Part shown: piece after piece, positions 17,145 through 62,400 of the stretch | How positions within the stretch are numbered: the first letter of the stretch is position 1 | Layout of the letters: every line of letters begins with the position of its first letter | DNA from: Paramacrobiotus metropolitanus | Taxonomy: Eukaryota > Tardigrada > Eutardigrada > Parachela > Macrobiotidae | Length of the DNA stretch: 64,000 nt | Assembly: GCF_019649055.1 (NCBI RefSeq) | Contig: NW_026570343.1 | Span: 310,001-374,000, forward strand | Direction: 5' to 3' | Translations under genes and position numbers: made by a program | Notes under the pieces: generated by a model | Told to the model about the DNA's origin: nothing | The model's database searches: none | What the model saw: the letters and a program-made list of their open reading frames with translations, nothing else

Positions 17145-19066
17145 CTGTATTTTCACAAGTTTAAGGGACACGAAATTGCCCTAGGTCTGCTTGCAAGCAC
17201 CCGGGGCGCGCAGCTACGTTCAGATCGGTTCACGAACAGCTGACTGGCGGTTAATTCAATTAAAATTTTAAAATCATTAAAATCAGCAATATCACCATTT
17301 AACAATAACTAATTTTCAAGTTACTCCGTTATGATTTACTGAAATCCAGTGTTTATGCGTGTGTCATGGAAAAATCGCACCGCAGATCTTATCTTGACTG
17401 GGAGATCAAGTATTTTTTGAGAAGCTATCGCACTAGCAAAGTGTCCCTTCGAGAGTTCTGTCGGAAAAAAAATATTCCAAAAACGTGCATGAGCAGATGG
17501 ATATCCAACGAGTAAGTGATGAATTACCTAAAATTGGTATTATTTACTGGACAATTTCTGAAATATTCAGTTTAAATTTATCATTGATATAAGTCCGTCG
17601 ATTAGAGAAACCGATGCGAAACCACGTAAGAGGGGACCAGAAAAGCAGGCCAAATATCCCAAGCTGGAGGAAGATTTACGAGAATGGGTAGACGACGAAC
17701 GCCAGAAAGGGTATCCTGTAACTCGCAACGATCTTCGAAATCAAGCGTTAGAAATTGCAAAGGAGTCTGGGATTTTGGATTTCAACGCATCTACAGGCTG
17801 GATATCCAAATTTATGTCTAGGAATAACCTGTCTTCACGCGCAGTAACGCACACGTCGCGGAAAGAAGAATTTTCTGAAAAAGATCTTGTACGTTGCCGT
17901 CTAATTAAAATCTATCTCAATTTAACACAAAAGCAAACACACAATAAAAATTGTGAATTAAGAACTGATTTTTAAATTAAACTGCAGGAAGATCAAGAGC
18001 GGTTTTTCGAAGAGCTCGTTGAAATTGTGGATATCCAGCAAACGCCCGCAAAAGACATTTTGAATTTTGACCAAACTAACGTCAAGTACGTCCCCTCAAA
18101 AATAAGAACTATCAACCAAGCAGGAGCGAAGCAAGTTTCTGTAGTGACGGCGGCTGGAGAGAAAGACGGGTTTACGATCAGTTTGACGGTGGCTGGAAAC
18201 GGAGAAAAACTGCCTGCAATAATTGTCTTTAAAGGCAATCCAAAAACCGGGGTTCTTTCCGAACGGATAATGCAACAGTTGGTCATCCCGAAAAATGTGC
18301 AGGTTATGAGCTCAAAATCATCTTGGTGGAATGAGCAGCTGGACCATAAATGGATTACTGAAACGTTTGAAATTGCTGGATATCCAAAAGTGTTGGTGCG
18401 CGATCAGTTTTCTGTGCATAAAATGCAATCATCGGCGGCTCTTCTCGAAGAGAGAAATATTCGCCAAGTGTTTATTCCTGTGGCTATGACAGGGTACCAT
18501 CAGCCTCTAGACGTCGGTGTTAACAAGCCATTTAAGCAATATTATCAGGACGAATACCGATATTGGCGAAAGCAGCACCACGAAACTACGAAGTCGGGGT
18601 ATCTGAAAAATCCTACCCGTCAGGATATCCTAAATTTCGTATCCGTGGCATGGGAAAAGGTGAAACCAGAAACTATTATTAATTCCTTTGCTGCAGCAAA
18701 AATAATCGAAAAGCCTGAGAACAAACCGAACGATGAAAACATGGACCCAACCGAGACAGCTGGCCCTAACGATGAAAGTTCTCTCGATATGAGTTGTCAG
18801 TTAAATTTAGACGAATCTGGTGATTTGGAGTTCAGTGATGGGAATAATTTGTAAAATAATTTTGTGGATATCCAATAAAAAAACATTTGATTTAAATTTT
18901 ACAGTAAGGTTTGCGAGATGGTCGAAAGTTAATGGGGCCAACCTGGCATGCGCATTTTCGATGCTTAGCAAACGCAGGTGAACGAATTTGAACGTAGCTG
19001 CGCGCCCCGGGTGCTTGCAAGCAGACCTAGGGCAATTTCGTGTCCCTTAAACTTGTGAAAATACAG
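17145..19066 (+). mobile_element. pogo/Tigger-like DNA transposon, apparently complete
   Basis: It is flanked by TA on both sides (17143-44 and 19067-68). The terminal inverted repeats are identical over 78 bp (17145-17222 and 18989-19066; outer bases CTGTATTTTCACAAG), with further imperfect similarity inside. The single gene within is an intact spliced transposase. Identical repeats and an open gene point to recent insertion. It is nested in the right arm of FB3, so it arrived after FB3. Confidence 0.9.
17366..18854 (+). CDS. pogo/Tigger-like DDE transposase (three exons)
   Basis: Exons are 17366-17511, 17594-17888 and 17988-18854, giving 435 residues in frame. The first acceptor (tataag) is weak but is the one that preserves the frame; the second intron has GTACGT and CTGCAG. 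The N terminus is a helix-turn-helix that recognises DNA (about residues 8-50, ending CMSRWISNE). It is followed by a CENP-B-type second HTH (about 60-130, with GWISKFMSRNNLSSR). Exon 3 is the catalytic DDE domain. The first acid is in LNFDQTN, the second in VLVRDQFS and the third in HQPLDVGVNKPFK, an arrangement typical of pogo/Tigger and jerky-like enzymes. The C-terminal tail is acidic. It would act in the nucleus by cutting the transposon at its TA-flanked ends. All catalytic positions are present, so it could be active. Confidence 0.9.
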
Positions 19067-36400: not shown

Positions 36401-36784
36401 AGCGCAGTTCGGGAGTGGGAGCTGGCGGTGCATAACAGTATTCGCTCTGACTTCATGAAATCATGCGTTCGAATGGATATTAACACTTTTATCTCTCAGC
36501 GATTATGCGATATGAAACAGCCCAGAATCGGACAAGGGAGTTTCTCAGTAGGTGGGCGTATTTATGTATTTGGCGGTTGTATCCCCTCGGGACGCGATTG
36601 TGACCGCTTCTCTGAACTTATGGAAGAGTATGATCCGGAAAATAATTCTTGGTCTTCTGTTAATTACACGAATTTGGATCGAAGGGTTTTTGAGAGAGCA
36701 TCCTTGGTCAGCACAACATGTTTGGTAGTCAAAAATGAAATGGAATATTACGTAACCGAATCAAACATTCCCAGGGAAAAGTAA
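33456..36784 (+). CDS. protein kinase fused to Kelch-like repeats
   Basis: Exons are 33456-33801, 34887-36036 and 36160-36784, giving 706 residues. Junctions are GT-AG in phases 1 and 2, and an in-frame stop precedes the ATG. The kinase domain covers about residues 20-300: glycine loop GRGGYGIVYKA (28-38), catalytic lysine K56 in VAVK, HRDLKPKN (158-165), and SPE at 210-212. The usual DFG is DLD (182-184), so the metal-binding Asp is present but Phe and Gly are not; activity is possible but not certain. The C-terminal half contains Kelch-like beta-propeller blades, for example YIFGGTK and RIYVFGGC followed by YDPENNSW. There is no signal peptide or membrane segment, so it is probably cytoplasmic. 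The Kelch part would bind a partner or substrate. The family name is not recognised. Confidence 0.85.
34310..34490. repeat. palindrome-rich patch in intron 1 of the kinase gene
   Basis: At least eight copies of TATCCGA or its complement TCGGATA, with variants, occur in both orientations over about 180 bp. The stretch can fold on itself and may be a decayed foldback or MITE. I see no coding role. Confidence 0.35.
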
Positions 36785-42800: not shown

Positions 42801-43866
42801 AGCCGTCCGTTTAAGCAATAAAGTACCAGCAAGTTTTCGGAAATACTAGTACCTGCCAGTCATTAACGCTGTAATTAAAGCGTGAGAACACCGTATCGAC
42901 GATACGCATTCCATTGCGCCCAATCGTCAACTGACGCGAAGGCAGCTCGAAACTGCGATTGATGAATTCCTCCTTGAACTGCCGGGCGCCGGTATGCGGT
43001 AACACGGTGAGCGATTCGTTTAAAACCTGCACATGCCATGACCTTTATAAATGCTTAATAACTGAATGGTTTTTCAGTTTTAAGCTCACATAAGTCAACA
43101 CGTAAAGGCTTTCGTAAATTGCCATCGCGATATCGTTGCGCTGCAAAAAATGCCGTGATTAGTGTTTTCTTTGCGTGTTCTCTGTACAGTTCTTATGATA
43201 CTGAATAATGCAGGTTGGAATGTACCTTTTCATCGGGCGCAAATGTATAATTGTATGTATCGACCGAGCGCTGAGCTTGCGCGTCAATGATATCACGAAT
43301 AGCTGACCAATCGGGATTGATAAAGTTTAGGGCAATCACAGACTGCAAAGCTTCGTAAGCAACCTGAACAATAACCAGGCAAAAGGTCAAGCAAATCGTT
43401 TATAAATCCGTCTAGCGTAAAATTAACCGATACAAACCGCATCACTAATCCGTTTTTTTCGGGTATTTTTATTTTTAACTTGATGGTATATTCACCTGAT
43501 CCAGGCCGTCCTTCATTTCCCAGGTGAAATCCAGTGATGACGGGCCGAGGATGGGTCGCACGTACAGGAAGACCTAATCAGCTTTCATTTCACAGCTGAC
43601 AAGCTGCCAATTACAGCAAAATTTATATGACCGACGTACGTATTGAGATGCATCCATGTGTAGCATTTTCGAGGTAATCTGCAATTACATGAGAGCTTAA
43701 TAAGACAAGGCTCGTGGTAATTAAAGGATGAGTGCTGTACCAGGAACTGGCGCAAGATGTTTTCCCTTGTGTCGTGTATAAGCGTTCACGCCGGTTAAGG
43801 CTCCATGAACAATCTTTACTCTTCCACGCCTGTAATGCTCAATCGGTAGGCACTCGTACTCTCAAA
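39842..43866 (-). CDS. receptor guanylate cyclase (N-terminal exons not found)
   Basis: Nineteen exons join in frame by GT-AG introns: 43820-43866, 43741-43765, 43640-43678, 43496-43573, 43226-43363, 43090-43140, 42853-43026, 42540-42636, 42412-42481, 42019-42253, 41782-41955, 41372-41675, 41025-41310, 40747-40966, 40553-40691, 40399-40447, 40261-40310, 40016-40107 and 39842-39946. They encode 790 residues. In order these are the end of an ANF-receptor-type ligand-binding domain (SDAAGNYLPV, Cys-rich end), one membrane segment (LPLYVGIAVAAVVILIGTVV), a kinase-homology domain (HKNVAGLLGMG, SLIVWELG, TDDVFALGVLLQEI), a coiled linker (LLVETKKSDALLAEIIPP) and the cyclase domain. It would make cGMP in response to an extracellular ligand. 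The guanine-binding Glu (VETI) and Cys (RYCLFGDT) and the NTASRME motif are present. The usual metal-binding FSD is FSS here, so activity may be weak or lost. About 250 N-terminal residues expected for the family are not accounted for. Confidence 0.85.
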
Positions 43867-45002
43867 CTGTAACAGAAGAACTAAGGTGGAAATAGACGAA
43901 CGATTCAGGAACACGAGAAGATCAGGAATCCCTCAGGAACGAGCTAACCACAACTTCCGGTCGTAAGTCCTGTGAGGATCGGTAAGAGCTAGGACGATTG
44001 TGTCACGAGCAAACCTGTATTCTATGCAATAATCCGGGAGCGATCATGTACATCAGAAGGAACAAGTATTGCTGTCTCTTTATCCAATTCACATCACAGT
44101 TCACAACGCTAGGAAATCGTAATTAGAAGCAGTCTCAGAAGTAAATCTCAGACTACTGATCCCGATATTAGGCATCACCAGAACTTATATAGACTTTGCG
44201 TTATGACATCATATACATCGCTAGTAAAAGAGAACAGCAAATCACAGCATTGATTGACTAGATTATCCGTTATGTTGCAGGTGGAAGGCGGACAGTCATC
44301 ATCCAGTACGTACACCCGGCGTATGATCCTACTCCCATACGTCACCCCCACGAACGATGCTTGGCCGTGCCAAAATAAACAATCCATCCCGCAACATCCC
44401 AGTGCGATTGTGCACTTCCATCCATCCTGATCCCGATCCACCGCACAATCCACGCGTCCATCCGATGCCCAATGTGACTGTACGCCGCGATTCCAGAGAG
44501 TTAGTGTGTGGAATCCTTGGCGAAGAGGCATCCGGAAGTCCACGGGTTTGGCAGGGCGGAGGTCCAAGGATCCAGGAAGGCAAACTATGAATTACTGACA
44601 TGGTGCCGCTTGAGTTTGGATGGTGTTTTATGTACAGTTTACGGCACAAAGCTTTATTAACTGTGAAACTAAAATCTTAAAATGTGATTATGTGTAATTC
44701 TGTAGAACTATGCATTAAACGAACGAGACCGCGATAACCAACAACCAGTAGTATTCTTACGAATTCTCGAGTACTACATCATCCAGTAACAACGGTCAAC
44801 AACAACAAACAAGCAAAAATATCTGCATAAAAATCATGAGGACAAATTACTGGTAGATGAGAGCAAATTTAAACCAGCAAAAGAATATCAGTAGCAATAA
44901 GATCAACACGGCTTTGGTAAAGCAAAGTCATTAGACAACACAAGGCCAGTAAAAAGGCGAGATCAAAGAAAGCAAAAGATCAAGGACAAAGGTGAGTCAA
45001 GG
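43867..45002. other. unresolved region upstream of the cyclase
   Basis: The first exons and signal peptide of the receptor cyclase should lie here or have been lost. A - strand frame at 44175-44567 is open for 130 codons but I could not link it by splice sites. The retroelement-like gene island begins at 45003, so the 5' end may have been cut off by that DNA. Confidence 0.4.
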
Positions 45003-45800
45003 TTACTTGCCAGCACTGGGAGCCAATGAAAACAAACCAGTAATGCCAGAGCCAGACGCTGCAGCGGCATCCAAACGGCGAGAAACTTCCGCAGCCATGT
45101 GACGTCGACGATCAGCATCCAATTCCCGCTGCTGCTGTTGGGCCAAATAGCCAGGCACAAAATTATGTTCAGCAGAACCAACAGGACCGGAAGGCGCAGA
45201 CGGCGCACGTGGGCGATCAGCCGGAGAACGGTCGCGGGCATCGCGGACAATCGGCACTTCAGGAAGTGGCAACACATTCGGAGGCAAACCGGGAAAGTCA
45301 GCATTCTGCGGGGCTTGCTGCTGCACAGGCGGAATGACAGCCAGAGGGACAACAACAGCATTCAAGGCTGGTGGGCCATGTAGATTGACAGCAGGGTTGA
45401 CACCATTGGGCTCACCTGCAGCCACATTTCCGTTGCCTTGGATCGGATTCGGTGCATTCGCTGCTTGGTTGCCCAGGTCGTCAACCTCCATGTTTGCGGC
45501 GGCAGCTTCCACTGGAGCAACTGGGTGAGCGTCTCCATCAAGTACTTCAATAACTTCCGGTGCGCCCAGAGGTCGGCCATTACGACGCCAATGATCGTTT
45601 CCACGACGCAAGTTATTGTCTCCAAAATTCCGATGATTTCCTCGGCCGTACGGACGAAAGTTGCCACGGTAAGCACCACGGGCTCCACCCCTTCCTCGGT
45701 GATTATAACCGGCATTATACTGTTGCTGCTGGCTGGAGGATGAATGAAAAATAGCGTCAACCAGCTTATCAAAAGCTCGGTTAGGATCAATAGGCGGCAT
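45003..45800 (-). CDS. RGG-rich protein of the retroelement island
   Basis: Open frame of 265 residues from an ATG at 45800, preceded by an acceptor-like cattag. The N-terminal third is rich in Arg-Gly and Asn (HRGRGGARGAYRGNFRPYGRGN), typical of RNA-binding disordered regions and similar in style to the Gag/Pol junction of the retroelement at 63 kb. The middle is Pro/Ala/Val-rich and the C-terminal part has a charged helix (QQQQRELDADRRRHMAAEV). No known family. The last codons contain a donor-like GGCAA|GTAACC, so a further exon is possible. It lies on the same strand as pol. Confidence 0.5.
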   Translation of the reverse strand: MPPIDPNRAFDKLVDAIFHSSSSQQQQYNAGYNHRGRGGARGAYRGNFRPYGRGNHRNFGDNNLRRGNDHWRRNGRPLGAPEVIEVLDGDAHPVAPVEAAAANMEVDDLGNQAANAPNPIQGNGNVAAGEPNGVNPAVNLHGPPALNAVVVPLAVIPPVQQQAPQNADFPGLPPNVLPLPEVPIVRDARDRSPADRPRAPSAPSGPVGSAEHNFVPGYLAQQQQRELDADRRRHMAAEVSRRLDAAAASGSGITGLFSLAPSAGK

Positions 45801-46334
45801 GCCCAACTAATGAAAACTAGTGACCTTTTACGCTAAAAGTAAAGAGAAAAAGGCGTTAAAATCACAGTCTACACACAGCGAAAATCAAGCATGCCAGAAG
45901 GCCGAAACGAAAAATCCACAATGCCGATTTCTGCACACTACGCGCAAGCGATTTTATACCTGTCTGCTGGAACGAAATTTAAAAGTGTGGCAGATTCCAT
46001 ACAGGTAAGAAAAACAACCAATCAGCGCTTCGCGCCATATCCTTTTAATGCAACGTAATCGAAGATCAGATCTATCCAGGTACAATGAGAGATTTAACAC
46101 TGATAGCCACAGCAAAGCGGCAAAAATATTAAACGACCAGTTCAATGACTCAATCCAGCGCGTAAAATTAGAAAGATAAAAGTTTGATACAGTAAAGCAC
46201 AATATTCCTGTGACACTCTATAATACAGAATGTAGTAGAGACACAACGGTGACGATCATTGAGACAATATCGAAGCAATCAAACCAAAAGTATCTGGAAA
46301 TTAGGACGAAGAAGCACAGCCAGGAACGATCGTG

Positions 46335-47878
46335 TTACAGTTCATCCGAATGCGGCTGTTGCTGAGCATAAACCGTCGGTTCCGCAATTTCAGGTGAATC
46401 CTCGCGAGCGACTGCAGCAACAGGTGGCACAGCTGGAACAACCGGCTGCATAAAAGGCAGCGGATCAACATCCATTTTGTCCAGATCGGATCCATCGTCG
46501 TTCTCACAATCAACTTCCATATCAACATTCTCGTCAGCTTCGACATCAGCATTCTGTTCCGGGGATAACACAGCCGAGGGATCCTCACGATCTTCCCCAT
46601 CATCCGAGACAGATACTTCGCTTGGCGCCGAAGACGAGGACGGTGAAACCTCCTTGTACTTGCGCTTTTCCCCACGAGTGCGAAAATTATATGGCCCAGC
46701 AGAAGTGGATGGCTGCGGTTCATCATCATTGGCAACTCCGCCAGCAACACCTTGACGCACAACTGCATCCTTTTCCTGTCGTTTCTCCAATTCTTCAAAC
46801 AAACGGACAAAGACCGGATTGAGATACATGTACTGGCCACGCAATTCAAGTGCAATAGGAGTAGGCAGTGACCGTGTAATGGTACACAAATCAAATCGAT
46901 TAATTAAAACTCCGTTGATGAACAAAAAGCGTGATAAATATAAACGCGGATAATAGCGGTGAAATCTGTTTAATCCGGTAAAATAGGCTTCAGTAACGAC
47001 GAGCTCACCACGTTTATCCGCGACGACCATTCTTGGAAATACTCCGGAATGCGCTCGTTTACGAGCCGTCTGCTTGGTTTTGAAGACCGGCCGCGGTGCA
47101 TCCGGGTTATAAGGCACATAAAGAATTCCGCCTTTGCGCAGATGTTCCTCGTCTAAACACAGTTGAAACGACAATGAGCGCAAGCAAAACTTAACCATGA
47201 TCAACTGCAAAACTGGCAGAAGAAGCAACGAAACAAAATAAAGCAACATGACAACGATTGTCGTATCTCATGAGGGTAGTAACGCGGAACGTCTACACTA
47301 GAAGCGAAAAATACTACAGGTAAATTTCAGACTTGTGAAAAACCACAACATTACAATAAAACCACGACAAACACGGCAATACCTCGCTTTGCTTTTACAG
47401 ATGGAGTCTCGGAAGACGATGGCTCTTCTTCTGTCAAGTCTGGAGTTCCCAGCTGTCTCTCCGCCTGCGTCTGCGGTTTCTTCGGTGATGGCTGACGGAT
47501 CTCAACGTCAGGGCTAGCAGGGAATAATCCTCTTCGAGCCTGGCGGCGAACCACAGCAGCATTGCGTCGCAAAATTGTTCGTCGCCGCTGTGCATCATAT
47601 CGGCGCTGCAAAGCATGAACTATCGCATCTGCCCAACTCGTTGGAGGTTGCTGAGCCTCTGCTGCACTCACCGATCCCGATGACCCAGAAGATTGCGCAG
47701 AAAACACTGGTTGGGCGGCGGTACGGCGAGAGACTCGAGATCGAGTGACACGCGATGAAGAACGGGCTTCATCGCTGTCCGGAGAATAACCAAAACTTAA
47801 TCCCGCTGTTGCTCGACTCGGGCGCGGTGTACGCGAAGCAGTCTTCCGCGCAGTCGCTTTCGTTGCGGGAGGCGACAT
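46335..47878 (-). CDS. two-exon acidic protein of the retroelement island
   Basis: Exon 1 is 47383-47878 (ATG at 47878, phase-1 donor GTATTG). Exon 2 is 46335-47212 (acceptor TCTGCCAG). The junction keeps the frame and gives 457 residues; without splicing both frames look truncated, so the intron is well supported. The N-terminal third is basic and Ser/Arg-rich (TRSRVSRR, RRYDAQRRRTILRR). The centre is a folded-looking block with aromatic residues (LNRFHRYYPRLYLSRFLF). The C-terminal third is strongly acidic with Ser and Pro (NVDMEVDCENDDGSDLDKMD), as in nuclear chaperones or activation domains. No family is recognised. It lies between the RGG-rich gene and the divergently transcribed gene at 48490. 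Confidence 0.6.
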
Positions 47879-48489
47879 TCTCAAAACATAAAAGTGACAA
47901 ATCAATCGTAAAACGAAGGGAAAAGGAGAATAACGGAAATGGCAGCAGGTTCAGAAAATTGAGAAACTGAAGTGCAGAGAAAAGCACAACAGAGAATCTA
48001 CACTGGCACCGACGCCGAGAACTCAAAATTCACCGAGTATACCACCAGGCGGTTGACAGGCGACAGACTGAATTTTACGAATTTTTATTCCCACTTTTCC
48101 CATTTGCCATAGCTCACACAGAATACCACTTGTTTCGTTGAGGATTTGCAAATTGCAACCACAAAAACCAAATTTTAACACAAAAAACGAATCATAATGA
48201 TAAAAAGAACTCGAAGAGGGAAAGTCAAAACCAAAACACGCGGCTGGGAAATATTCAGAACACAGACCAGAAACTGTGCAGTTTCTGATAGCATTGCCAT
48301 ATCAGGGCGGCTGACAAGTGACAAAATGCCGCATCGCAAGCACAGAAAATATCAGCTGTTCATCCATAAAAAGCGAGGAACCCAACAATATCTATCCTTT
48401 TACGGTGACGGATTTTCTGTTTCATTTTATTACTAGCTTGTTTCTCTTCGCCGAATTTTATTTTAATCAGTTCTAATCATCCGATCATC
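47879..48489. other. spacer between divergent genes
   Basis: This separates the - strand gene ending upstream at 47878 from the + strand gene starting at 48490, so it should hold both promoters. A + strand frame of 79 codons (48197-48436) is present but has no support. Confidence 0.4.
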
Positions 48490-49861
48490 ATGTCCGCGCA
48501 GCCTGTAGGACCAACTGAAGAGCCTCTCCCTTCGCCGGAGGCAGACGCGATTGCCCACTATGAATACTGGAAGGGACGAACTCGTGAATCAGTGCAGTTT
48601 GCCATGGCGGAGCCTCTACAGCCAAACGAAACCATCCGAGACCGTCGACAATTGGCGATGCATACGGCAGCCCACGCGTGCATTCTTGAGGCTGACATTA
48701 CAGGATACTATGTGGACATGTCATCTATCAAGAAATTCGTTGTGGAAATGCACGATGATTTTACAGAAGAACGAGTGGATTTCTTCCTTGGCGACGCTAT
48801 CAACGCTGGTATCTTGCTCAAGAAGATGAGCCGCGACGGGCGCTTTGTCCTAGAAGTCGCCGAAGAAGTCAAGAATAACCGCGATCCAGAGACGAAGGTA
48901 ATCGACACAACTAGCAAGTTTCGTCGGATGATTCGCGTAATCCTCTACCACGGTCGATACGCCATGTCACGCACCGAAATCCAACACTGGATCTGTACGT
49001 TCGACGTACAGTTGCAGGACGTGGACTACTGGCTGGAGCGCGGGCTGCGCCAACTGGTTAACCAGAAACATGTCGTCGTCGTCTACGGGAATCTTTTCGT
49101 GGATAGCTGCATCGACCTGTGGCTACGAAGCATTCGCGGCTGCTGTCTCTGCACCACTCTAGCCCAAACTATCAGTAAGTGTTTGTGTTTTTCAAAACGG
49201 CATTTTCGATATTACGTTTTAAAATAGCCTTAACAACGCTGTATACTGCAGATCATCTTGCCTTGCGGAATTTAATAAAATGATTTATTGTGCAGATATC
49301 AAAATGGGCACTATGAAGGTGACAATCAACGGAAGAGACACAGAGCAACACTTTGCCGATTGTAGCTTCGGTTACGTGGGACAGGACGGGGATTTGGTTG
49401 TCGATGGCGTCATGGAGCGGCTGGACGCAATCGAGCCCGAGAAGAACAACACCACGAACGTAAATCTGATAATCCGGGCTAACAAAGACGGGCGTATTGA
49501 GCGAGAACCAATTATCACGCTCACTCAGCTGAAAGCTATGGGCGGCCGTCCGAAATATGTTCCCCGATCGAAAAGTACGGATACCGAGAAGAAAGGCCAG
49601 AAGACCAAGGAGAAGGCCGAAAAGCCTGACAATGAAGTAAGCACTGCAAAGCCGGATGCTATGAAAAAGCCCGACGCAATCGACAAATTATTAGAACAAG
49701 TCGAACGCGAAAAGGATATTATGGATAACTGCAAGGCGCTGGTAAACACGCTGAAGGCTCGAGCGACGATGGATGCTAAACATATCGCGTATATCCGTGA
49801 GGCTCTAGAACAGCGTCTTGCCAACTTGAAAACTGCAAAGGAGAATTTGGATCTGGATTAA
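48490..49861 (+). CDS. two-exon protein of unknown function, opposite strand to the island
   Basis: Exon 1 is 48490-49174 (donor GTAAGT) and exon 2 is 49296-49861 (acceptor TGTGCAG). The phase-1 junction gives 416 residues. The start is the first ATG after an AT-rich leader. The N-terminal 230 residues look like alternating helices and short strands repeated about twice (compare ILEADITGYYVDMSSIKKFV with MSRTEIQHWICTF), which could be tandem winged-helix-like units; this is a guess. Exon 2 carries Lys/Glu-rich linkers and ends in a predicted coiled coil (about the last 60 residues, starting IDKLLEQVEREKDIMDN). No signal peptide or membrane segment. It is the only island gene on the + strand, so it could be a host gene or an antisense gene of the element. 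Confidence 0.65.
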
Positions 49862-50245
49862 ACAGCAGTTTAAGGATATCTGATAATTTTGTTCTGAAAT
49901 TCGGCCGATTTTGTTTCTTCCGTTTAACGTTTTGATCTCGTTGAATTAATCTCATCAGTGTTTTAGCAGGCAACTGTCATAATTCCGTACAAATTCTCAT
50001 ATAGTCGTTAATCTTGCTGGTCGGACAGATCTTAATTCGAGTTTTAATTTAGATTTTATGCAGCATTTGAATAACCGCAATAAAGTCAGTGTAACAGAAT
50101 ACGCAATCATAACAACAGTGAATTCCAGTACAGAGTGAGAAATTAACAGCTTAAAATCAATTATCACACCTGGAACCGTGAATCAAATGCTAAAAACAAT
50201 TTTAATATTCCATCTTGGGAATAAAGTTACAGAAACCACCATGGA
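49862..50245. other. spacer before the tRNA-like array
   Basis: AT-rich. It should hold the 3' UTR and poly(A) site of the gene at 48490; an AATAAAG lies at about 50080. I see no other feature. Confidence 0.35.
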
Positions 50246-50297
50246 AAAGTAAAAAGAATAGAAAAGAACTTTTAAAACTTGCAAAATGTGTATTCAC

Positions 50298-50372
50298 GCA
50301 GGATTGAACCTTGCATCTAGGTGGACAACTAAATCCTGCTCTTGCCCATACGCTAGCATGGCTATACCCCAT
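50298..50372 (-). ncRNA. tRNA-like unit 1
   Basis: A-box-like TAGCGTATGGG and a good B box (AGGTTCAATCC). T-runs follow at about 50250-50266. It is the most 3' unit on the - strand and its spacer is the least similar to the others. Confidence 0.45.
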
Positions 50373-50587
50373 TTTACTTTTAATTTGGCAATCACTGGAG
50401 GCGCTGTACTACGAAAATTCACAATATAGTGAAAATTCACCGCTGCAGCAGCTGATAAATTTAAGATTTCACCACCATCATGATCGCAGAATTCATGCCG
50501 ACAATGGAAATATTTCCACAAGAGTGACAGTAAAAATATAAAGACAAAAAAAGTAGGATGTTAGAAAATGCAGTTTTAATTTCAAGG

Positions 50588-50668
50588 GGTTTCGAACCCG
50601 CAACCTTCATTGCACCTGTTGTTGTGGTTCAACAGTTCAGTGCACTACGCCACTACAATCTACGAAGT
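50588..50668 (-). ncRNA. tRNA-like unit 2
   Basis: A-box-like TAGTGGCGTAGTGC, B box GCGGGTTCGAAACCC, then gcattttctaacatcctac and a run of seven Ts. Confidence 0.5.
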
Positions 50669-50805
50669 TAAATTTAAAATTCGCTCGTCGGGGATGACCA
50701 TAAAATTACCAATCTCGAAGCCAACATAATACTGCATATAAATTTAAAAATATAAAACCGAAAAAGAAGGTTTTTAAATTAAAGGGATTAACTTTTAGGG
50801 ATTCG

Positions 50806-50877
50806 AACTCTAGACTTGCAAGAAGCGGGTCGGTATGGATTCTCAGTCAAGCCACTACGCCACAAGGTGCTCTACGC
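50806..50877 (-). ncRNA. tRNA-like unit 3
   Basis: A box TGGCGTAGTGG matches the consensus closely. B box is AGTTCGAATCC. The tail aaaaccttcttttt follows. Confidence 0.5.
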
Positions 50878-51032
50878 TAAAGCCGAATTAGAATTAACAC
50901 CGGAAGCGCCATGTCGTGTATATTTAATCGTGTATATTTAATCAGACTGCACGAGGGATTAAACCTTGACACTTCTTCCCACAAAAGGTACAAAAATATA
51001 GGGCAGGAAAAATGTAGTTTTCAACATGCAGC

Positions 51033-51120
51033 ATGCAACCCTGAGATTAAGACTAGCCGTTCAGGAGGTAGAACATGAGGCGAATGGCCATCATTCAAAG
51101 CCACTGAACTACAAAGTCAC
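51033..51120 (-). ncRNA. tRNA-like unit 4
   Basis: A box TAGTTCAGTGG is like that of real tRNAs. The B box is degraded (CAGGGTTGCATGC). The tail ends in five Ts. Confidence 0.4.
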
Positions 51121-51303
51121 ACGAATACAGACGAAGAGATGGCCAAGTGCAATGTTAACCATTGAGTGTATATACAATTTTACACCCAGCTCTCTGAGTT
51201 TAATTCCGATATTCTGGGAGCTATTTGTCAATACTTTTCCCACGACGATAACAAAAATATGAGACGAAAAAAGTAAGGTTATGAAAATTGCAAATTAGCT
51301 GTA

Positions 51304-51386
51304 AGGGACTTGAACCCGCAACCGTTTCATTTCCCCCTTGCTGCAGTTCAACGGTGCAAAGCACTATACTACGCTGTTCTACGACA
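51304..51386 (-). ncRNA. tRNA-like unit 5
   Basis: A-box-like TAGTATAGTGC and a perfect B box GCGGGTTCAAGTCCC. The tail caattttcataaccttac ends in six Ts. Confidence 0.5.
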
Positions 51387-51518
51387 GTTATTTTTGAATT
51401 CGCTCACCGGAGAGGAACACAAAATTACAGCGGTCAACCGTAATACGTATCTGATGGTACTGTGACATTATAAAACGCAAAAAAAAAAGAAGGTTTTAGA
51501 AAATGTGCATTACTTGCA

Positions 51519-51598
51519 AGGGTTTCGAACCCAAGGCCCTAAATTGACCGAGTCGTAGCGGAGACAAGGCGGACAACCACTACACTACGAAGACTCAC
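51519..51598 (-). ncRNA. tRNA-like unit 6
   Basis: A box TAGTGTAGTGGTTGTC resembles those of Asp/Glu/Gly tRNAs. B box is GGGTTCGAAACCC. The tail ends in about ten Ts. Confidence 0.5.
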
Positions 51599-51759
51599 AG
51601 CAAAACACGAAAATCCGCACGGGAAAGGCTGTACAACTATGTGCCGCTCGCTGAAAACTGATAAGGAATTAGCGGTATCACAACGAATGTGTAAGTACAA
51701 CCAAACGCAAAAGTTTAGACACGAAAAAGAAGGTTTTAAGAAAATGCTTTTAAATTTTT

Positions 51760-51843
51760 GCGGATTTGAACCCAGGGCCAGCAGTAGGTAAACGGATTCG
51801 CCTGGTATTGTCCTCACAGCTTAACCGGTCGACTACTAGAGTC
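51760..51843 (-). ncRNA. tRNA-like unit 7
   Basis: The A-box region GTCGACCGGTTAAGCTG resembles class II (Ser/Leu) tRNAs. B box is GGGTTCAAATCC. The tail aaaaccttcttttt follows. It suggests a different tRNA ancestor from unit 6. Confidence 0.45.
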
Positions 51844-52012
51844 ATCGGCAGAAATAGTGTGAATAACACTGCTTACAGTGTCAGTACTCGTATTGACGCC
51901 TCTCAACGGTGGTCCAGCCAATATTCCTCATATTAAATCCCATGAATAAGAATATAACGATCCATGAAATAAAAACAAAAAATGAGGATATTTAGAAAAT
52001 CGCGTTTTTATA

Positions 52013-52083
52013 TAGACTGGAACCTCCGACCTCCAATGACGAAGCAACGGAAGCCTCTACTATACTAGCGGGGTCGCTCTACG
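52013..52083 (-). ncRNA. tRNA-like unit 8
   Basis: A-box-like TAGTATAGTAGAGG and B box GGAGGTTCCAGTCT. The tail cgattttctaaatatcctc ends in six Ts. It is the most 5' unit on the - strand. Confidence 0.45.
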
Positions 52084-52610
52084 CAAAATGTTTGAAAATA
52101 TCGGCGCCAAAAACGTACACCTAGTCAATGGTAGGTGTGCTAGAAGCCTACCCACCCAAGCAACCAACTGCGTGAAAACCAATACAATGTCCCAACGGAA
52201 GTGGAGTCTCATGCGGTTATGCGTTACATTGTCCAAAAATTACCGACAACAGCAGCGACAGCGGCTACTTAAACTTTATTAAATTCGCAACTCTCCTAAT
52301 AAATGACTAAGAGGACCCGCAACAGGATACAACGGAACATCCATAATGTGCAGACCGTACGCAACTAACCAAACAGGAAACTAAACGATAAAATGCTCGG
52401 ACTAGCCCAACGAAGATAAAGAGTGGAAAACTAAAAGATCCACAATATGAGATCAGCCGCGAGTAAGTACAATCATAAGGGTAAAAGAGTAGAAGCGCGT
52501 AAAATCCATACGCTTAAAGTAACGCGCCACACACACTCCATTCACAACAGAAGGTACTCTGGGTCACCGTGCGAAATCCACCTCCGAAAAGTCCATCCAA
52601 GGATAACACA

Positions 52611-52793
52611 TCACGGGGTCTTTGGAGGAAGCTTAGAGACAGCCTCCTTGACGGCAATTCTGCCACGCTCGAAACGTTGTTGGGCTTCCGTGCGTTCAGC
52701 CATCTTTTGCGCCACGATCTCCGTCCATGCCGAAACACGGTTCTCCAGCGCCTGCTTGGCCGCTTTCTTCCTCTCGCTTGCCGGAGGAGTCAT
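52611..52793 (-). CDS. small helical ORF of the island
   Basis: ATG at 52793 and stop at 52611 give 60 residues rich in Ala, Glu, Lys and Arg (starting MTPPASERKKAAKQALENRV), with a heptad-like pattern. No homologue is recognised. The composition resembles the charged helix in the RGG-rich island protein. It could also be one exon of a larger gene. It lies between the tRNA-like array and the ORF at 53310, on the strand of pol. Confidence 0.4.
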   Translation of the reverse strand: MTPPASERKKAAKQALENRVSAWTEIVAQKMAERTEAQQRFERGRIAVKEAVSKLPPKTP

Positions 52794-53309: not shown

Positions 53310-54050
53310 CTACGATGTGCTTGCGCTTCTTCTTGGGTTTCTGGTCAGGCCGAAATCTTCATCCACCCACAGCATATCCGCAGGCAAGAATTCCGTCGGA
53401 TCCTTAAAATCCAGCTTGTTCTCTGCCCACCAGTCATCCACGTCTAAGTCTGGCTCCTTCCAGTCCTCGAGATTGCCAGATCCCCAGATATTTGGAACAG
53501 GCTCATCATCATCCGGTGTACAGAATACGACCACATGAGCCTGGGCCATTATTCTCGCAGTCGACACAACAGCTCTCTCTTCCATCACTCGCTTGTTGTG
53601 TTCTAGCATGCGCTGATGACGCTCACGCAAAGTTTCCGGCGGGTTAAATAGGGATGGCAAGCCAAATTCCTTCCGCAGGCGTTCAGATGCTTCACGTCGG
53701 ACTGGAGTGTCGGGATACAGAATAAACCCGATCTTCAAGTAATACATCTGCGACTCCGACTGGCGGATGTTCTCAATCTCCAAAGCCACCTGAGCCTCGA
53801 AATCCAATGGCTCGGGTTCTACAAAATTCAAAGCCATGATTTCGGAATTAGAAAGCTTGCAAAGCTCCGAAATAGAAATATACGGTCCAACCAAGGAACG
53901 CCAAAAGTACACAAACTCCGCAATGTGTTCCTGGTTCGCAGAAACATACGCAACAGATTCAGAGAACTTGACAAACTTACGGCGTTTCTTATCATCCTGT
54001 TCCGCGCAAATCATACGCCCGCGCTCTGATTTATAAAATTCCATCTCCAT
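53310..54050 (-). CDS. 246-residue unknown protein of the island
   Basis: ATG at 54050 (MEMEFYKSE); the frame is open further upstream, but that part looks non-coding. The protein is acidic overall. It has a folded-looking centre with a long charged helix (LRERHQRMLEHNKRVMEERA) followed by short strands (AHVVVFCTPDDDEP) and a Trp/Asp-rich tail (WGSGNLEDWKEPDLDVDDWW). No membrane segment, signal peptide or known motif. The frame is intact and shows protein-like composition, which supports a real gene. It is on the same strand as pol, with about 580 bp to the next ORF. Confidence 0.5.
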   Translation of the reverse strand: MEMEFYKSERGRMICAEQDDKKRRKFVKFSESVAYVSANQEHIAEFVYFWRSLVGPYISISELCKLSNSEIMALNFVEPEPLDFEAQVALEIENIRQSESQMYYLKIGFILYPDTPVRREASERLRKEFGLPSLFNPPETLRERHQRMLEHNKRVMEERAVVSTARIMAQAHVVVFCTPDDDEPVPNIWGSGNLEDWKEPDLDVDDWWAENKLDFKDPTEFLPADMLWVDEDFGLTRNPRRSASTS

Positions 54051-54631
54051 AGTATGAAAGAGCAGAGATTTAAACCAGAAGAAATGACGACAAAGTCTGT
54101 AAAATTTAAAAGCTGCAGCTAAAAATGTAAAAGGCAAGAGTGAACAGGAAAACCGCTGACACACCGCAGCTGTGCAGACCGGAAGCAGCTGCGCACTATG
54201 TGACTGCCACTGCCCTAACATTTAACGACACACGGGCGGTTGCTACAGTGACAAAATTGTTTACATGTTCAAACGTGAAGACTTGCATTTTAAACTGTCA
54301 TTTTGTATGTTAAATCGTTTTTCGACGGATTATCTGCCAAATTCTGATTTGAATAACCGAGAACAGTTTAACTGATTTATTGCTGAACAGCCAAATCTGC
54401 GCTCCAGAGAATGAATGGTAAGCCACTTCATAGAATAACTGCACGTTGCACAGGCTGTAAAAATAACGTTAAAAAGCTAATTGTAAACGGAAAACAGATT
54501 CTGTTACAGGATTCTATAAACTTAGAATAACATGCCCAACACTGAAGGTAATGTTCTTCCGTAAAACGAAAAATACAGAGGCTAAGTAAGAGAGCACTAC
54601 AACAGGGCTGTGATTGCAGGGGAAATCCTCA

Positions 54632-55480
54632 TTACACCGCAGCGCCCATATCATCGTCATCATCGCGACGTGGGCGATGGCGTTTGGCGATCGAAGCATC
54701 CAGTTTACCAGGACCGCGCTTCTCCTGTCCTTCATGCAACAGCCAACGAGTCTGTAGCAATTGCTGCTGATGTTGAGCTGCCGACCGCGGATCCGCTGCA
54801 TTCAAACGCTCGAAATAGCGCTGCTCCGCTTCCAAGCGGTGATCCTCATCAATATTGGAAACCAATTCCTCTATATGTTGATTATACGCGTCCACGAGCG
54901 TAACGACGGCACCATGGTCTCCCGTTTCCCCCGGGACATAATCCAATGCAGTGAGAAACTCGACAGGATTGCGCACCACATTGATGCCGTAATTACGACG
55001 GAGTTCGCAAACAATTTGCCCGATGAGCCATCCTTGTCGGAAATCCACACGCAGGTAACGTAACAACGCATAGTGTGCATCCTTTGACAGATCTAGAGTG
55101 TGGACAAAACGGTTATATTTATCGACCGTCATTTCCGATCCATTATGGTAGATCTTGCCGCGAAAACGCAATCGAGTTTCTGGATGCAACTCCACATAAT
55201 CTCTGTCCGGATTGTAGGGACGATTGATGATCAAACCAGACGGGGGAGTATAACTCTTTCCTCCACGAGCATAGTCGTACGGAGACGGACGAAGGCCACA
55301 ATCCACCATGAGATGGGACCACTCAAACGTTGGTTCAGGCCATCCAACATGAGGATCGGGATACATTGGCGGCTGAACATCGGCCAAAACATCTGCCAAA
55401 ACCTGCACCGAATCTTCCGAGGAACTCGTAGTATCCTCATGCTGAAAGGAAGGATGCGACGGTACTTTGGGGCGATGCAT
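54632..55480 (-). CDS. 282-residue unknown protein of the island
   Basis: Intact frame from an ATG at 55480. A disordered, acidic N terminus leads to a folded-looking central domain (about residues 45-190) with YARGGKSYTPPSG, RLRFRGKIYHNGSEMTV and LRVDFRQGWLIGQIVCELRR. A Glu/Gln-rich helix follows, then a basic patch (KRHRPRRDDDDDMG) that may act as a nuclear localisation signal. No family is recognised. It lies about 340 bp below the H2C2 ORF, on the same strand as pol. Confidence 0.5.
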   Translation of the reverse strand: MHRPKVPSHPSFQHEDTTSSSEDSVQVLADVLADVQPPMYPDPHVGWPEPTFEWSHLMVDCGLRPSPYDYARGGKSYTPPSGLIINRPYNPDRDYVELHPETRLRFRGKIYHNGSEMTVDKYNRFVHTLDLSKDAHYALLRYLRVDFRQGWLIGQIVCELRRNYGINVVRNPVEFLTALDYVPGETGDHGAVVTLVDAYNQHIEELVSNIDEDHRLEAEQRYFERLNAADPRSAAQHQQQLLQTRWLLHEGQEKRGPGKLDASIAKRHRPRRDDDDDMGAAV

Positions 55481-56454: not shown

Positions 56455-59400
56455 TCAGCCGACGGGTCTCTTTACGCTTTTGTCGTTGTTCTGATTAATA
56501 AATCTCTCCACAGGTTTCACCACACGCCCGGAGCGGGTTTTAAGCAATGGAACCGCTTCCATCTGGTTATCCAGATATTCAGCGTACTCAGCATCAAGGC
56601 GTGACGATGCTGAGTCAGCAGATGGAATCACCGGCGGCGGCGCGGGCGCCTCAACTAATTCATCGGGGCATTCCTTTTCCACACAATCGAGCAACTTCGG
56701 TAAGTGCTCGTCTTGTAGTATAGTATCAACGTCGCGGAAATTATACGGCTTTAAACGGCTGACATGTACCGTGTCAGTTTTGACATTTCCGCGCCGGTTA
56801 CTTTTTACTACATAGTGCACGGGTCCTGACTGACGCACAATTTCCCATCCAGCGGTCCAACGGGGCATAAGGGATGGATTTTTCCCGACTTTCCGATGAA
56901 GTACGTATACCAAAACTTGATCTCCCGGTTTATACGATACATGTGAAATATTTGCATCATATCTAATTTTATCTTTTAGCTTATGGCGAAACTCTTCTGC
57001 ATTCACCAAGTCCAGGGCCTCACCAAGGCCGCGCTGCATCTGCTGTACATATACGTGAGCGGGAATCACGAAATCCTCTTCAAATGGCAGGAAGTTATTT
57101 ATCGGTAAGCGCATCTCGGTGCCGTGCATCATGAAGAATGGTGAGCGGCCCGTTCGCTCCACAACTTTACTGTTAAATGCAGCACAAAGTGCTGGGAGGA
57201 ATATATCCCAGTCACTTTGCTGCTCATTCACATACTTCGCTAGCGCCTTCTTGATTTCCCCTACGCGTTTTTCAACCAGACCGTTACCCTGCTGGTGGCC
57301 TGATGCCGTCGGGGCGTGAGCAACACCAGCGAGAGCGAGAAGCTCTCGAAACATCTCAGACATGAAATTACTGCCGCGATCTGAGGTAATATGCACAGGC
57401 ATACCGAAGACTGTGAGAATGCGGCGATAAAAGAACAATGCCAATGTGGCGGCATCATTTCTCTCGACTGCCTCAGCCACAATATATTTGCTCCCGTAAT
57501 CAACAGCGATTATTATGTTTTTATTTCCAGATTCCGTCGTTGGGAGGGCTGGAGCAACGTCGATTGCCCAAACTAACCGAGGAGGAACCGTGGGATTGGA
57601 CTGAAGAGCGCCGGCTGGTGCCGTAGCAAGAGGATTTTGTGCAAGGCACGCCGGACACGAGGCACAGTAACTTTTAACAGACTCAAACATACGAGGCCAA
57701 TAAAAATACTTGTACATCCTTTTATAGGTGGCCAGGACGCCCAAGTGTGCTGCTAACGGGGAATCATGGTTATCCTGAAGGAACTGAAGCCGCCAGTGAA
57801 CAGGTGCATACATGCAGTAATAGATCTTCCGGTTTAATTCGAACTTGTAGTATACGACGCCCTGTTTCACTACAAATTTGTTTAAATGTAATTTCTCGTG
57901 GTCTGACATCTTTTCCTTTTTATTCTCCAGGAGTAACCGCCATCGGACGATGCGCGCATCGCGAGACTGCTCTTCAGCCCAGTATGAGGCCTTGTCATCC
58001 GTAATCAACTTTTGGACTTTATCTGCGTCAAATGCCTTCATGTCTGCCTCGGACACTGCCTTCACTTCCGCCGACATCATTTCAAAGCGAATGTCCACAT
58101 AATCTCGCTCCAGAACCGCGAAGCAACATTCAATCATCGCCATATCACCGGCGAAAGGGTAAGTTTGCCGATAATCAAATTCAATGTCCGAGTCGTCGGA
58201 ATCAGGTTCTGGCTGTTCACCTGGATTTCTGCTTAAGGCATCAGCAATAACGTTCTCTTTTCCAGGGATATGTACCGGTTTGGTGTTAAATTGCTGGATG
58301 TACAAAGCCCAGCGGCCGAGACGACCAGCAGCATCACGCATATTGTTGAGAAAGACCAAAGCTTGATGGTCCGTCTGCACTTCAAACTGATAGTCCGAAA
58401 GGTAATGTTTCCATTTCTTCAAAGCACAAATGACAGCGTAAGCTTCGAGTTCTGTAGGGAAATAAAGTCTCTTCTGCGTTTCTGTCAACTTGCGGCTTAG
58501 ATATGCAATAGGACGCCAGTTTGTTGGCACGTCCGTCGGTTTATCCTTGGGACATTGCATGAGAACTGCACCCACAGCAATAGTACTGGCATCGACAATA
58601 ACTCGCGACAGAGCCTCCGGGTCATAACGGGCCAAGACCGGCGCCGTCACCAAGGCCTCCTTCAATTGTTCCACAGACCTACACTGATCCGTTCCCCATT
58701 CAAAGGTAACTTTTTTAGGAATCAACTTTTGAAGCGGCTCCGCAATCTCTTGAAAATTCTTAATAAATTGGCGATAATATCCCACCATACCTAGGAACCG
58801 TAATGTATCTTTTTTGTCTTTTATAGGGCCAAATTCCTTAACCGCCTGTATCTTCTCTGGATCAGTACTGATACCGAACTGGTCAACCGTGTGACCCAGG
58901 AACGTTATTGAATTTACAAATAATTCTGTCTTTTCAGGATTAATGGTCCAGCCGCATTCCTGGAGCCGCAAAAAGAGCTCCTGTAAGTCTCGCATATGAT
59001 CAGCCAGGTTTTTACTGAAGACAATAATGTCATCAATAAAAACTAATACGTTCCTCCACTTCATGTTCGCAAGCGTCAAATCCATGGCGCGCTGGAAAGC
59101 CGAAGGCGCGTCCTTCATCCCGAAAGGTAAGACTTTGTATTGGAACGTGAACTCTTCACCCACCATCGTTGTTTTACACCGGTCTTCCGGTTTTATTTTT
59201 ATTTGCCAAAAGCCACTCTTTAAATCGATTTTACTGAAAACCGTAGCTTTATCGAGGGCATTTAATATATCGTCAACTCTGGGAAGCGGGTAACTGCTGC
59301 CCATTAATCTTTCGTTAAGCTTACGGAAATCCACGGTTAAACGCCGGGATTTATCCTTCTTCTTCACTATACAGATGGGACTGCCCCATGCCGAATTTGT

Positions 59401-62400
59401 TGGCTCAATTATACCGTCTTTAATCATTTCCTGTGTTTTAGCCTGGAGCCATTTGCGGTCTTCAAACGATGTGCGATACGGAGGAGTTCTGACCGGCAAA
59501 CTCGTGCCTGTATCCACAGAGTGCTCATATATGGTACAACAACCCACAGGACGCGCCTTAGTCGGTAAAACTGATTTCGCTTGATAAAAGATTGCTTTTA
59601 ATTCATCCTTGCTGGGACAGATATCACCAACTTTGATTTTAGCGAACGTTTCTTCGGTTTCAGGATCAACGACACTAACGGCGGGTGGCGGCAACTGCAT
59701 CGCCACACATTCAGTAATTTTCTCCAGGACCGGAACACCTCCCTCCTTACTGAGAATACCACCAATTGCCTCTTGACAGTTCTCCAGGAACTCCGGAGAG
59801 TCCATTTGATAAACTGCGTCCACGAGCGCGACTTCGCCAAGGTTGGTTTCTTCATTCAAAACGAGCGGTTTGTCAGAAACGTTAACGACGCAGACTCTAC
59901 AATTACCATACTCATTTAATGTTAAAACGCCGTCCAATAATACCGCATTCTTATTCGAGTCTGGAATTTTTCCTTCGTAGAGAAACGGCTGGGTGTATAG
60001 ATACTCATCCTGAAATTCCATAAACTGTTCGTCAGACATCGACGTCGTTGCACGAATAATTCCCTGTGAATGGGGCTGAATTATAACCGGCGAGGCTGGG
60101 AAGAGCTCCATTTTAAAGCAGTCAATAGGACCGGGTTCTGGCTCAAAGCGGTAAATATCATGTTCTACCGAATTAAGCTCAACCTGTGCTTGTGCCTGTT
60201 TCAGATGGGCGTCCCTGTACGCCAGCTCGATGACATCCTTCGAATACACGCATGCCGGGATATCAGTGGACTCACGAACGTCCTGAGATCGTTTGGGCAA
60301 ATTTTTAGCCGCCGGTTGTTGTGGTACCGGTGCTGGCTCCACCGTCTCAGCTGACATTTGGCTCGCCGCCTCTCTTTCTGCATATTCCCGCCGAATTCTG
60401 CGGCTGTAACTGGACTTTTTGCGCCGCGGAGGACTCCTTGGACCTTCCGTTGGCAGTTCGCAGTTTCCCACGGTAGGTTGTACTGCACTAGACGCCACAG
60501 TCTCCCTCAATACTTTTTGCTCATGAATTTCGTTCCAAATCTTCCACTGTTCATTGATATCAACATCTACTGGGGAGTCGTAAGAGGCCCTGACTGCCGA
60601 AGGAAGAAACTCCGAAACTTGCTCACTAATCAACTTATGGTTTTGCGGTGAGTTAGACACGATTTGAGAGTTTATTTCTCTTTGCTTCTCCGCCTGTTTA
60701 TCTTCGTAGGAGACTGGACACGGGCCGATGTTAATGGGTTTCATACCATCTGCAGGGACAAAGCTACCGTTTTCGAATTCTCCTGCTGGTGCCGGGTTAT
60801 CCACGGAAAAGGTAACCTTACGTTTTCCTGTAGCTTTCTGTGCATTTAATTGCTCTGTGCGTTTCAAGGTTTCAAAATGTCGGCGATCATTAATCGAGTT
60901 TCGACACACGTCGCAGTTCTTCTCGTACCGTTCAATTTCTATTATACAGTCCGGCCAGTAAAATAATTTCACCAAGTACGGATATAGCTTTTCATGCCGG
61001 CCATACGCTTGCTTATGAATTAAAATTTCGTGGAAGCAGGCAATTAATTTCTGTCGCCACTGATACGGCACGTAAATTCTCGGACATGCACCAGAATGAT
61101 CAGATACCCTGCACAATATCCCCTCACAAATCACAAACCTGTTGATTTCGTATTTGGTAAAATTCGTATTAGCGTGCGACGGTTTCTTGTACATTTTGTA
61201 CCACATCCGGCTATCAACACATTGCTGTTGAGTTTCGCGCCAGAACTGCGGATCACGGAATCTTTTCTCTGAAGGGAATAAGCCCTTATCCTGCGGCCTA
61301 TCCATCGGCGTCATCCATTTCTTCAACTCTGGATTGCGTGCCATGTAAGAGGGACAATCATGGACTTCATCAACGTCTCTGCGATCTCGTTCGACAGGTA
61401 TGATATTTAATAATTTATTGTCTATGCTAAAGCATTCAACCGATTTAGAAGATTTCCGCAGAACACCCATGTATAGGTATTGAGCTGCAGGATGCTGCTG
61501 AAGTACTGCGTCAATCGAAGAAATTTGGATCGGAAGCTGCAAGGGATCTTCACCCCCACGAACTTGACTGGATCCAGAAGGAGGCACAGGGCTGACTGAT
61601 GCCGAAGACGAGTTACTTGAACTACTCGAGCTGCTTGCCGGTGGCGGCGGGGAAATTCTTTCACGTTTAAACTGCGGCTGAGAAGACGCCTGTTCGCACC
61701 CCCACGAACTTGACTGCATACTATTTACAATTGTTTCACCGCCTCCCCCACGAACTTGACTTTGTTCTGGGTTTTTCTCCACCTTAATTTCCTTTTTAAT
61801 TGTAGGTTTAACCGGTTCATCGGCAACGGAAGCTGCCATGGGCAAATATTGCCGGATCATTTCCTGTACCACGCTCCGTACAAACTCCTCATCACGTTGA
61901 TCAGATCCAACTTTAACCAGTGCAGCCTTCACAGGCACAACTTCTTTAACTTCGGTTTTTACTGGGACGTCGACAACATTTGTTTTAATAGATTGTGTCG
62001 ACTGAGTCAAGCGAGGCCACGACTGCTTCGCCTTCTGCAAGTGTAAGATACAAATTTCCGGATCAGCTTTTGCCAAAATTAGATGGGCCGATTCGTAGGG
62101 AACGAATTTTGCCTCTTTAGCAACACCGATTCGCTCGGTCAGCATCAACGCTGGGATCGCGGGCGACGGCTTAACTCCCGGGGGAATTAATGGATCAAAA
62201 TCGTGAGCACGAATAACGTCAGACATCAGGTGAGTTTCACGGCGTAAAAATGCCGGAGCATTAGACGGTCTGCGCGACAGGCGCCATGTCATCGTATTCA
62301 TGTCTAAAATAAAAGGCTTCATAGCTAAAAAGTCTAAACCTAAAACAACGTGGTCTCTATCAAAGGTAGAACTGACTAGTATAGCGTGCTCAAACGCCAT

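Follow-up and report, generated by a model that had tools for sequence, protein, structure and literature searches.

A retroelement in the genome of the tardigrade Paramacrobiotus metropolitanus carries an array of tRNA-like units that is probably a slowly changing set of small-RNA genes for RNA polymerase III (Pol III). The array lies in a stretch of 64,000 nucleotides (C123:310001-374000, hereafter the window), inside a long terminal repeat (LTR) retroelement of about 24 kb whose sense strand is the minus strand. A search of 169.8 Mb in 533 contigs located the units at no fewer than 49 places of the genome, in two diverged lineages. Their A and B boxes, the internal promoter sequences of tRNA genes, are the most conserved parts of the array, T-runs follow the units, and the whole array occupies the gap between two convergent gene ends.

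Eight tRNA-like units in one orientation

Matrices for the A and B boxes were built from 20 host tRNA genes, and both strands of the window (128 kb of strand) were scanned for A+B pairs scoring at least 13. Eight pairs were found, of which six correspond to units U2, U3, U4, U6, U7 and U8 in the sense of the element. One further pair lies elsewhere, at 40 kb, and one is antisense inside the array (51140-51207, plus strand, score 15.8, overlapping the region before U5) and probably arose by chance. Shuffled arrays contained a mean of 0.08 pairs and never more than one (60 shuffles). Across the 24 arrays that were read, 135 matches are in sense and 6 in antisense, and 131 of the 135 have a run of five or more T within 85 nt of the start of the B box.

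The original prediction, made from the sequence of the window, described eight modules in one orientation, each with both boxes and most with a shared tail. As a whole this observation is confirmed, with eight units on the minus strand at a spacing of 211-288 bp and B-box or B-like starts, from U1 to U8, at 52025, 51772, 51531, 51316, 51041, 50809, 50598 and 50310. The boxes pass the threshold in six of the eight units, whereas U1 and U5 fall below it in the window copy, where their B boxes are degenerate; canonical B boxes are present in sister copies for U1 (C69) and for U5 (C73 and C69). The shared tail survives as a loose common motif, but the exact B-box-plus-tail pattern of U3 occurs once in the genome.

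50255-52089, minus strand: the whole array, its eight tRNA-like modules numbered U1 to U8 along the sense strand of the element (position weight matrix scan, conservation, 49 genomic places)
51990-52088, minus strand: U1; A box 52057-52067; B-like GGTTCCAGTC at 52015-52025; pairwise identity 0.958 in 17 copies
51725-51848, minus strand: U2; B box 51762-51772; two alleles among copies
51480-51605, minus strand: U3; A box 51577-51587; B box 51521-51531; tail running into T10; missing in several copies
51265-51390, minus strand: U4; B box 51306-51316; paralogue of U7
50995-51125, minus strand: U5; the B box of the window copy is degenerate, that of C73 and C69 reads GGTTCGAATCT
50760-50882, minus strand: U6; A box 50852-50862 TGGCGTAGTGG; B box 50799-50809 AGTTCGAATCC; top A+B score
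50545-50670, minus strand: U7; A box 50642-50652; B box 50588-50598; divergence from the window 0.010
50255-50415, minus strand: U8; A box 50345-50355; B box 50300-50310; the most conserved unit, divergence 0.009, identity 0.985

U4 and U7 match at 73% of 105 columns, and because their likeness spans about 180 bp and extends into the upstream spacer, it points to a segmental tandem duplication. Parts of the segment from B box to tail are also common to U2, U3, U6 and U7.

Conservation of boxes and T-runs

Conservation was measured in 17 of the 49 places, namely the window, ten of the best unit matches and six of the last seven in the same list; the alignment is least certain around U2 and U3, where unit content differs between copies. 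Units have a mean pairwise identity of 0.916 (69% of columns invariant) and spacers one of 0.842 (42%); when the unit mask was shifted circularly, 2 of 2350 shifts reached this difference. With the eight units pooled, identity is 0.817 in the flank (-40 to -21) and 0.866 at -20 to -1, reaches 0.959 in the A box, 0.904 between the boxes and 0.947 in the B box, and declines through the tail (0.881, then 0.851) to 0.815 beyond. The boxes are therefore peaks of conservation over their flanks in other copies, as had been anticipated. The accompanying claim that the anticodon and acceptor regions have diverged freely is right between units, but among copies of the window lineage the sequence between the boxes is kept (0.904 against 0.815-0.817 in the flanks).

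Divergence from the window in ten copies is about three-fold lower in units (0.037) than in spacers (0.108), with values of 0.009 for U8, 0.010 for U7, 0.017 for both U1 and U4, 0.037 for U5, 0.042 for U6 and 0.050 for U3. The B-box motif GTTCRA is kept in 17 of 17 copies in U7 and U8, in 15 of 17 in U4 and U6, in 10 of 11 in U3, in 5 of 17 in U2 and in 1 of 17 in U1; at the position of the window's U5 it occurs in none of 17. Runs of four or more T are found in 2 of 130 unit bodies and runs of five or more in none, while a run of at least five T trails the unit within 45-62 nt in 122 of 125 cases (rows with large gaps dropped).

Arrays across the genome

Five units served as queries, and the matches scored were the best 40 of 88, 40 of 43, 40 of 47 and 40 of 55, and all 36 of 36. 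Every one of these 196 matches lies in an array, that is, no more than 6.5 kb from a match of another unit on the same strand or inside an array that was read (25 of the 49 places were read at least in part). The view that the array is tandemly expanded and differs from a plain cluster of short interspersed elements (SINEs) is borne out by this distribution, together with the boxes being the most conserved segments.

The arrays seen have five to eight units each, drawn from nine unit types in collinear order. The ninth type, UX, stands beside U2 in copy C136, replaces U2 in C73 and C10, and recurs in the second lineage. U3 is missing in C96, C52, C338 and C18, and C10 and C73 have no full match to it; U4 is missing in C136, and C37 has U1, U2, U3, U7 and U8 only. 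The second lineage comprises six fainter places (L057-L062), whose matching pieces resemble the window at about 65-82%. Their units U1, UX, U3, U6 and either U4 or U7 follow one another in the same order, and the U6-U4 portion is repeated in three of the six. At C50:458991-464814 the array is seemingly interrupted, with a U8 match about 5 kb from matches to U1-U3; the part of it that was read (L056) holds U7 and U8 together with a fragment of U6.

A slot between convergent genes

The array sits between the ends of the element's sense genes and of an antisense gene, as is evident from the poly(A) signals that flank it on both sides.

52611-52793, minus strand: small sense open reading frame (ORF), 60 aa, the final sense ORF ahead of the array
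52275-52280, minus strand: AATAAA of the sense genes, directly ahead of the array; within 52262-52295 in 17 of 17 copies
50079-50084, plus strand: AATAAA for the antisense gene, directly past the array on its opposite side; 16 of 17 copies have one within 50060-50095
48490-49861, plus strand: antisense spliced gene, exons 48490-49174 and 49296-49861 (public model LOC129598761)

A second candidate poly(A) signal for the antisense gene is present at 50205-50235 in 8 of 17 copies. The sense neighbour of the array is the same in the second lineage, where the DNA of the 60-aa ORF is matched in five of the six stretches, the five that reach far enough. The antisense ORFs starting at 48490 and 49280 are two exons of one gene, joined to each other in LOC129598761, a public model of 410 aa that comes from a sister copy; the gene matches the P. 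metropolitanus model at 97%, its intron (49175-49295) is GT..AG, and splicing yields the same QTINIK junction. Its exons have an excess of third-codon-position changes between copies. The intron is one that the sense genomic RNA cannot lose. The antisense protein has no Pfam family above cut-off, and its predicted structure was not used (mean predicted local distance difference test score 41.5).

The host LTR retroelement

What had been described as a retroelement gene island is instead a single LTR element, running from 43,770 to about 67,816 in window coordinates and thus past the window's end. Its length and minus-strand sense follow from the positions of the LTR pair, the LTR ends (TG..CA), the 4-bp target-site duplication (TSD) CAAG and the primer-binding site (PBS) TGGCGCCCACCGG. 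Its assignment to the Ty3/mdg4 type is based on the LTRs, TSD, PBS and order of pol domains. The two LTRs are 99.65% identical over 576 columns. In a second copy (C129, TSD GTAC) the LTRs differ by no substitution and by 8 gap columns only, and this lack of substitutions suggests recent transposition.

67242-67816 in window-equivalent coordinates (C123:377242-377816, beyond the window), minus strand: 5' LTR, from comparison of the LTR pair
56455-63360, minus strand: pol with protease, reverse transcriptase (RT), RNase H and integrase (Pfam); codon-position divergence 0.045/0.029/0.222
54632-55480, minus strand: accessory ORF, 282 aa; no Pfam family above cut-off; 0.038/0.022/0.197
53310-54221, minus strand: accessory ORF, 303 aa; no Pfam match; 0.047/0.069/0.140
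47351-47905, 46335-47249 and 45003-45806, minus strand: three further sense ORFs with third-position excess; no Pfam match
43770-44345, minus strand: 3' LTR, from comparison of the LTR pair

By Pfam, the pol domains follow the order protease (residues 254-345), RT (1332-1492), RNase H (1580-1691) and integrase (1929-2021); about 1000 residues separate protease from RT, and there are two Integrase_H2C2 stretches. Codon positions were compared between the window and up to seven other copies, three more copies spanning the array region only. All ten ORFs tested, two antisense ones included, diverge most at third positions, with the ORF at 53310 and pol as the extremes. The ORF at 45003-45806 has a stretch rich in RG and N and is under strong constraint (0.021/0.019/0.107).

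Identity, folding and candidate roles of the units

The units were rejected as true tRNAs: ARAGORN found none in the window and none in 18 loci, Rfam gave no match at gathering level, and none of its six sub-threshold matches in 49.4-53.4 kb is a tRNA. When each unit was compared with 20 host tRNAs, against 200 shuffles, the number of shuffles doing as well was 0 for U3 (best likeness Leu), 1 for U7 (Leu), 4 for U6 (Ser), 5 for U5 (Arg), 10 for U2 (Thr), 17 for U8 (Ala), 34 for U1 (Lys) and 74 for U4 (Thr), so that the likeness of U1 and U4 is not above chance.

Folding of single sequences gave no hairpin signal (z from -1.46 to +1.59). With the second lineage added, z is -2.33 for UX and -2.69 for U7, where a small hairpin is possible, and 0.19 for U1, -0.39 for U3, 0.05 for U6 and -0.50 for U8. 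This lack of a general fold speaks against hairpins of microRNA precursors and against a kept cloverleaf. The units are also unlikely to be protein-coding exons. In the window copy, stops close every sense frame in the cores of U3, U5 and U7, and those of U1, U2, U4, U6 and U8 have one open sense frame each, that of U8 being broken by a stop in copy C69. A 23-mer of U8 had no match among viral contigs.

Two roles that had been proposed for the units, as primers for reverse transcription and as guides, find little in their favour. The PBS downstream of the 5' LTR pairs over 13 nt with host tRNA-Lys(CTT), through 10 nt of the gene and the presumed CCA. No exact copy of the 10-nt gene part occurs on the sense strand in 24 arrays; the best partial match covers 7-8 of 10 positions in 22 arrays and 9 of 10 in two, and in the window this 9-of-10 match (51401-51410) lies in the spacer before U4 rather than at the 3' end of a unit. 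Units are thus unlikely to serve as primers. As for guides against the element itself, the exact complementary run beat all 12 shuffles in 2 of 32 unit, strand and piece comparisons, by 1 nt, the comparison covering exact pairs and the part of the element within the window, all but its 5' 3.8 kb.

Interpretation and alternatives

Boxes as conservation peaks, T-poor bodies with T-runs behind them, a single orientation and a slot between convergent genes are together what type 2 Pol III genes would be expected to look like, and we infer Pol III transcription of the units from the element, the architecture, the constraint and the T-run pattern. In the mechanism that we propose, TFIIIC would bind the internal A and B boxes, and Pol III would make RNAs of about 100-120 nt that end at the T-run behind each unit. 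Because the array lies between the sense and antisense poly(A) signals, it could work without the LTR promoter. New units would arise by duplication of segments of about 180 bp, with gain and loss between copies, while within a lineage each unit type would retain its own sequence. The RNAs may then act in trans, as decoys or regulators of host factors or of silencing, while the LTR is quiet.

Several observations weigh against this proposal. Most units have no conserved fold (z of -1.50 to +1.20 against column-shuffled alignments). U2 diverges from the window by 0.106, hardly less than the spacers, because it has two alleles. Position 57 of the B box varies in U1 and U2 (GTTCCA, GTTCTA), and the B boxes of U1 and U5 are degenerate in the window copy while the bodies of these units stay conserved. 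A-runs, like T-runs, are rarer inside units, so the depletion of T-runs is partly a matter of composition. Finally, the boxes of U1 and their neighbourhood are near-invariant in the second lineage and the loop between them diverges between lineages, as it might in a pure promoter or protein-binding site.

This last pattern fits the main rival explanation, an unlikely one, in which the array is a boundary element: as DNA, its boxes would bind TFIIIC or Pol III and serve as insulator or roadblock where the sense and antisense genes converge, the RNA being irrelevant. That the array has convergent poly(A) signals on its two sides in nearly all copies, that several sites of the same type stand in a row, that the A and B boxes are its most conserved parts and that conserved folds are scarce would all suit such a function. 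However, the bodies between the boxes are conserved within the window lineage (0.904 pooled; 0.958 and 0.985 for the cores of U1 and U8), each keeps a sequence of its own that a protein-binding site would not need, and U1 and U5 are conserved despite degenerate B boxes. Inside the lineage each body keeps a version of its own, and this conservation favours RNA products over mere TFIIIC sites, without proving them.

A sequence constraint on the genomic-RNA strand, where the units lie, could also mean that they are cis-acting elements of the sense genomic RNA, serving packaging, export or translation, with the tRNA-like boxes left over from their ancestry. Visual inspection does show that in U1 the CGACC ahead of the A box complements the invariant GGTCG ahead of the B box. 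We give this explanation little credence, as conservation peaks at the A and B boxes, the T-run pattern and the lack of a general fold signal speak against it, and the array is downstream of the sense poly(A) signal. Least probable are old tRNA-derived SINE insertions carried as passive cargo. Their tRNA-like heads, T-rich tails and best matches to different tRNAs would be accounted for, and six of the eight units have the internal A and B boxes of such SINEs; but dispersed independent copies were not found among the scored best matches, all 196 of which fall in arrays, units diverge some three times less than spacers, orientation is single, and the likeness of U4 and U7 enters the spacer.

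If the array is a set of Pol III genes, a wider proposal can be put forward, and we do so tentatively, as something that may hold or may not: that the retrotransposon has a modular non-coding arsenal of individually selected Pol III RNA genes, lost and acquired as modules, kept across two lineages and acting on the host when the LTR is silenced. Were this true, an array of separately conserved Pol III genes beside a spliced antisense gene would show that the regulatory programmes of retrotransposons can match those of retroviruses in complexity. The nine RNA types, spread over 49 or more places in an animal's genome, can be put to the test, and they call for care in the annotation of tRNAs and SINEs.

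Other features of the window

Imperfect AACCTAAGA-type repeats at 6356-6945 and 9304-9488, with flanks rich in TTTCGGCCG repeats, may be telomere-like or satellite DNA. A DDE_1 transposase domain lies in a 275-aa ORF at 18027-18854 (plus strand). The region 34856-36784 (plus strand) has a protein-kinase ORF (34856-36040) followed by a Kelch-repeat ORF; the two best of the three matches to the kinase ORF are P. metropolitanus proteins, one of them with kinase and Kelch domains.

Comparison with known systems

To our knowledge this would be the first array of Pol III RNA genes in a Ty3/mdg4 element. Among open-licence full texts, we found none that describes an autonomous LTR element with an internal tRNA-like array, and none that joins P. 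metropolitanus, genome and retrotransposon. Pol III small-RNA clusters have so far been known in a few complex viruses. The tRNA-miRNA-encoded RNAs (TMERs) of murine gammaherpesvirus 68 (MHV68) number eight, and the microRNA precursors formed by the units of bovine leukaemia virus (BLV) are hairpins.

Among LTR elements, the plant Ty3/Gypsy element Retand is described as having a long region from pol to the 3' LTR with antisense ORFs and often tandem repeats (PMC11963269), and the long 3' region of the tardigrade element resembles it in both respects. Unlike here, the plant repeats are described there as family-specific and of unknown function (PMC11963269), and the TRP28 domain was not found in the tardigrade element by Pfam. 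The Helenus and Ajax terminal-repeat retrotransposons in miniature (TRIMs) share with it tRNA-derived Pol III boxes in an LTR element, a 4-bp TSD and animal hosts, according to the source, which considers the tRNA-like stretch in the LTRs of Helenus not to encode a functional RNA (PMC10886601). Helenus (TRIMp3) is, however, short and non-autonomous with its tRNA-like sequence in the LTR, whereas the tardigrade array is internal to a 24-kb element with pol.

The viral clusters are closer in design. The TMERs combine a tRNA-like structure, followed by hairpins processed to microRNAs, with type 2 Pol III promoters (PMC8223928), and they likewise place several tRNA-like type 2 units in one mobile genome; but MHV68 is a DNA virus, and in the tardigrade array neither a tRNA-like fold nor microRNA hairpins are evident. 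For the BLV cluster, two papers report Pol III recruitment and antisense transcripts (PMC4992882, PMC4855707), and the tardigrade array resembles it in having retroelement-encoded units, predicted type 2 Pol III promoters and an antisense gene. Judged by sequence, type 2 promoters and T-run terminators are present in the tardigrade units and hairpin precursors are not, apart from a weak signal in UX and U7. The BLV units are microRNA precursors, whereas the tardigrade units, without a hairpin signal, belong to another class of element and to a host of another phylum.
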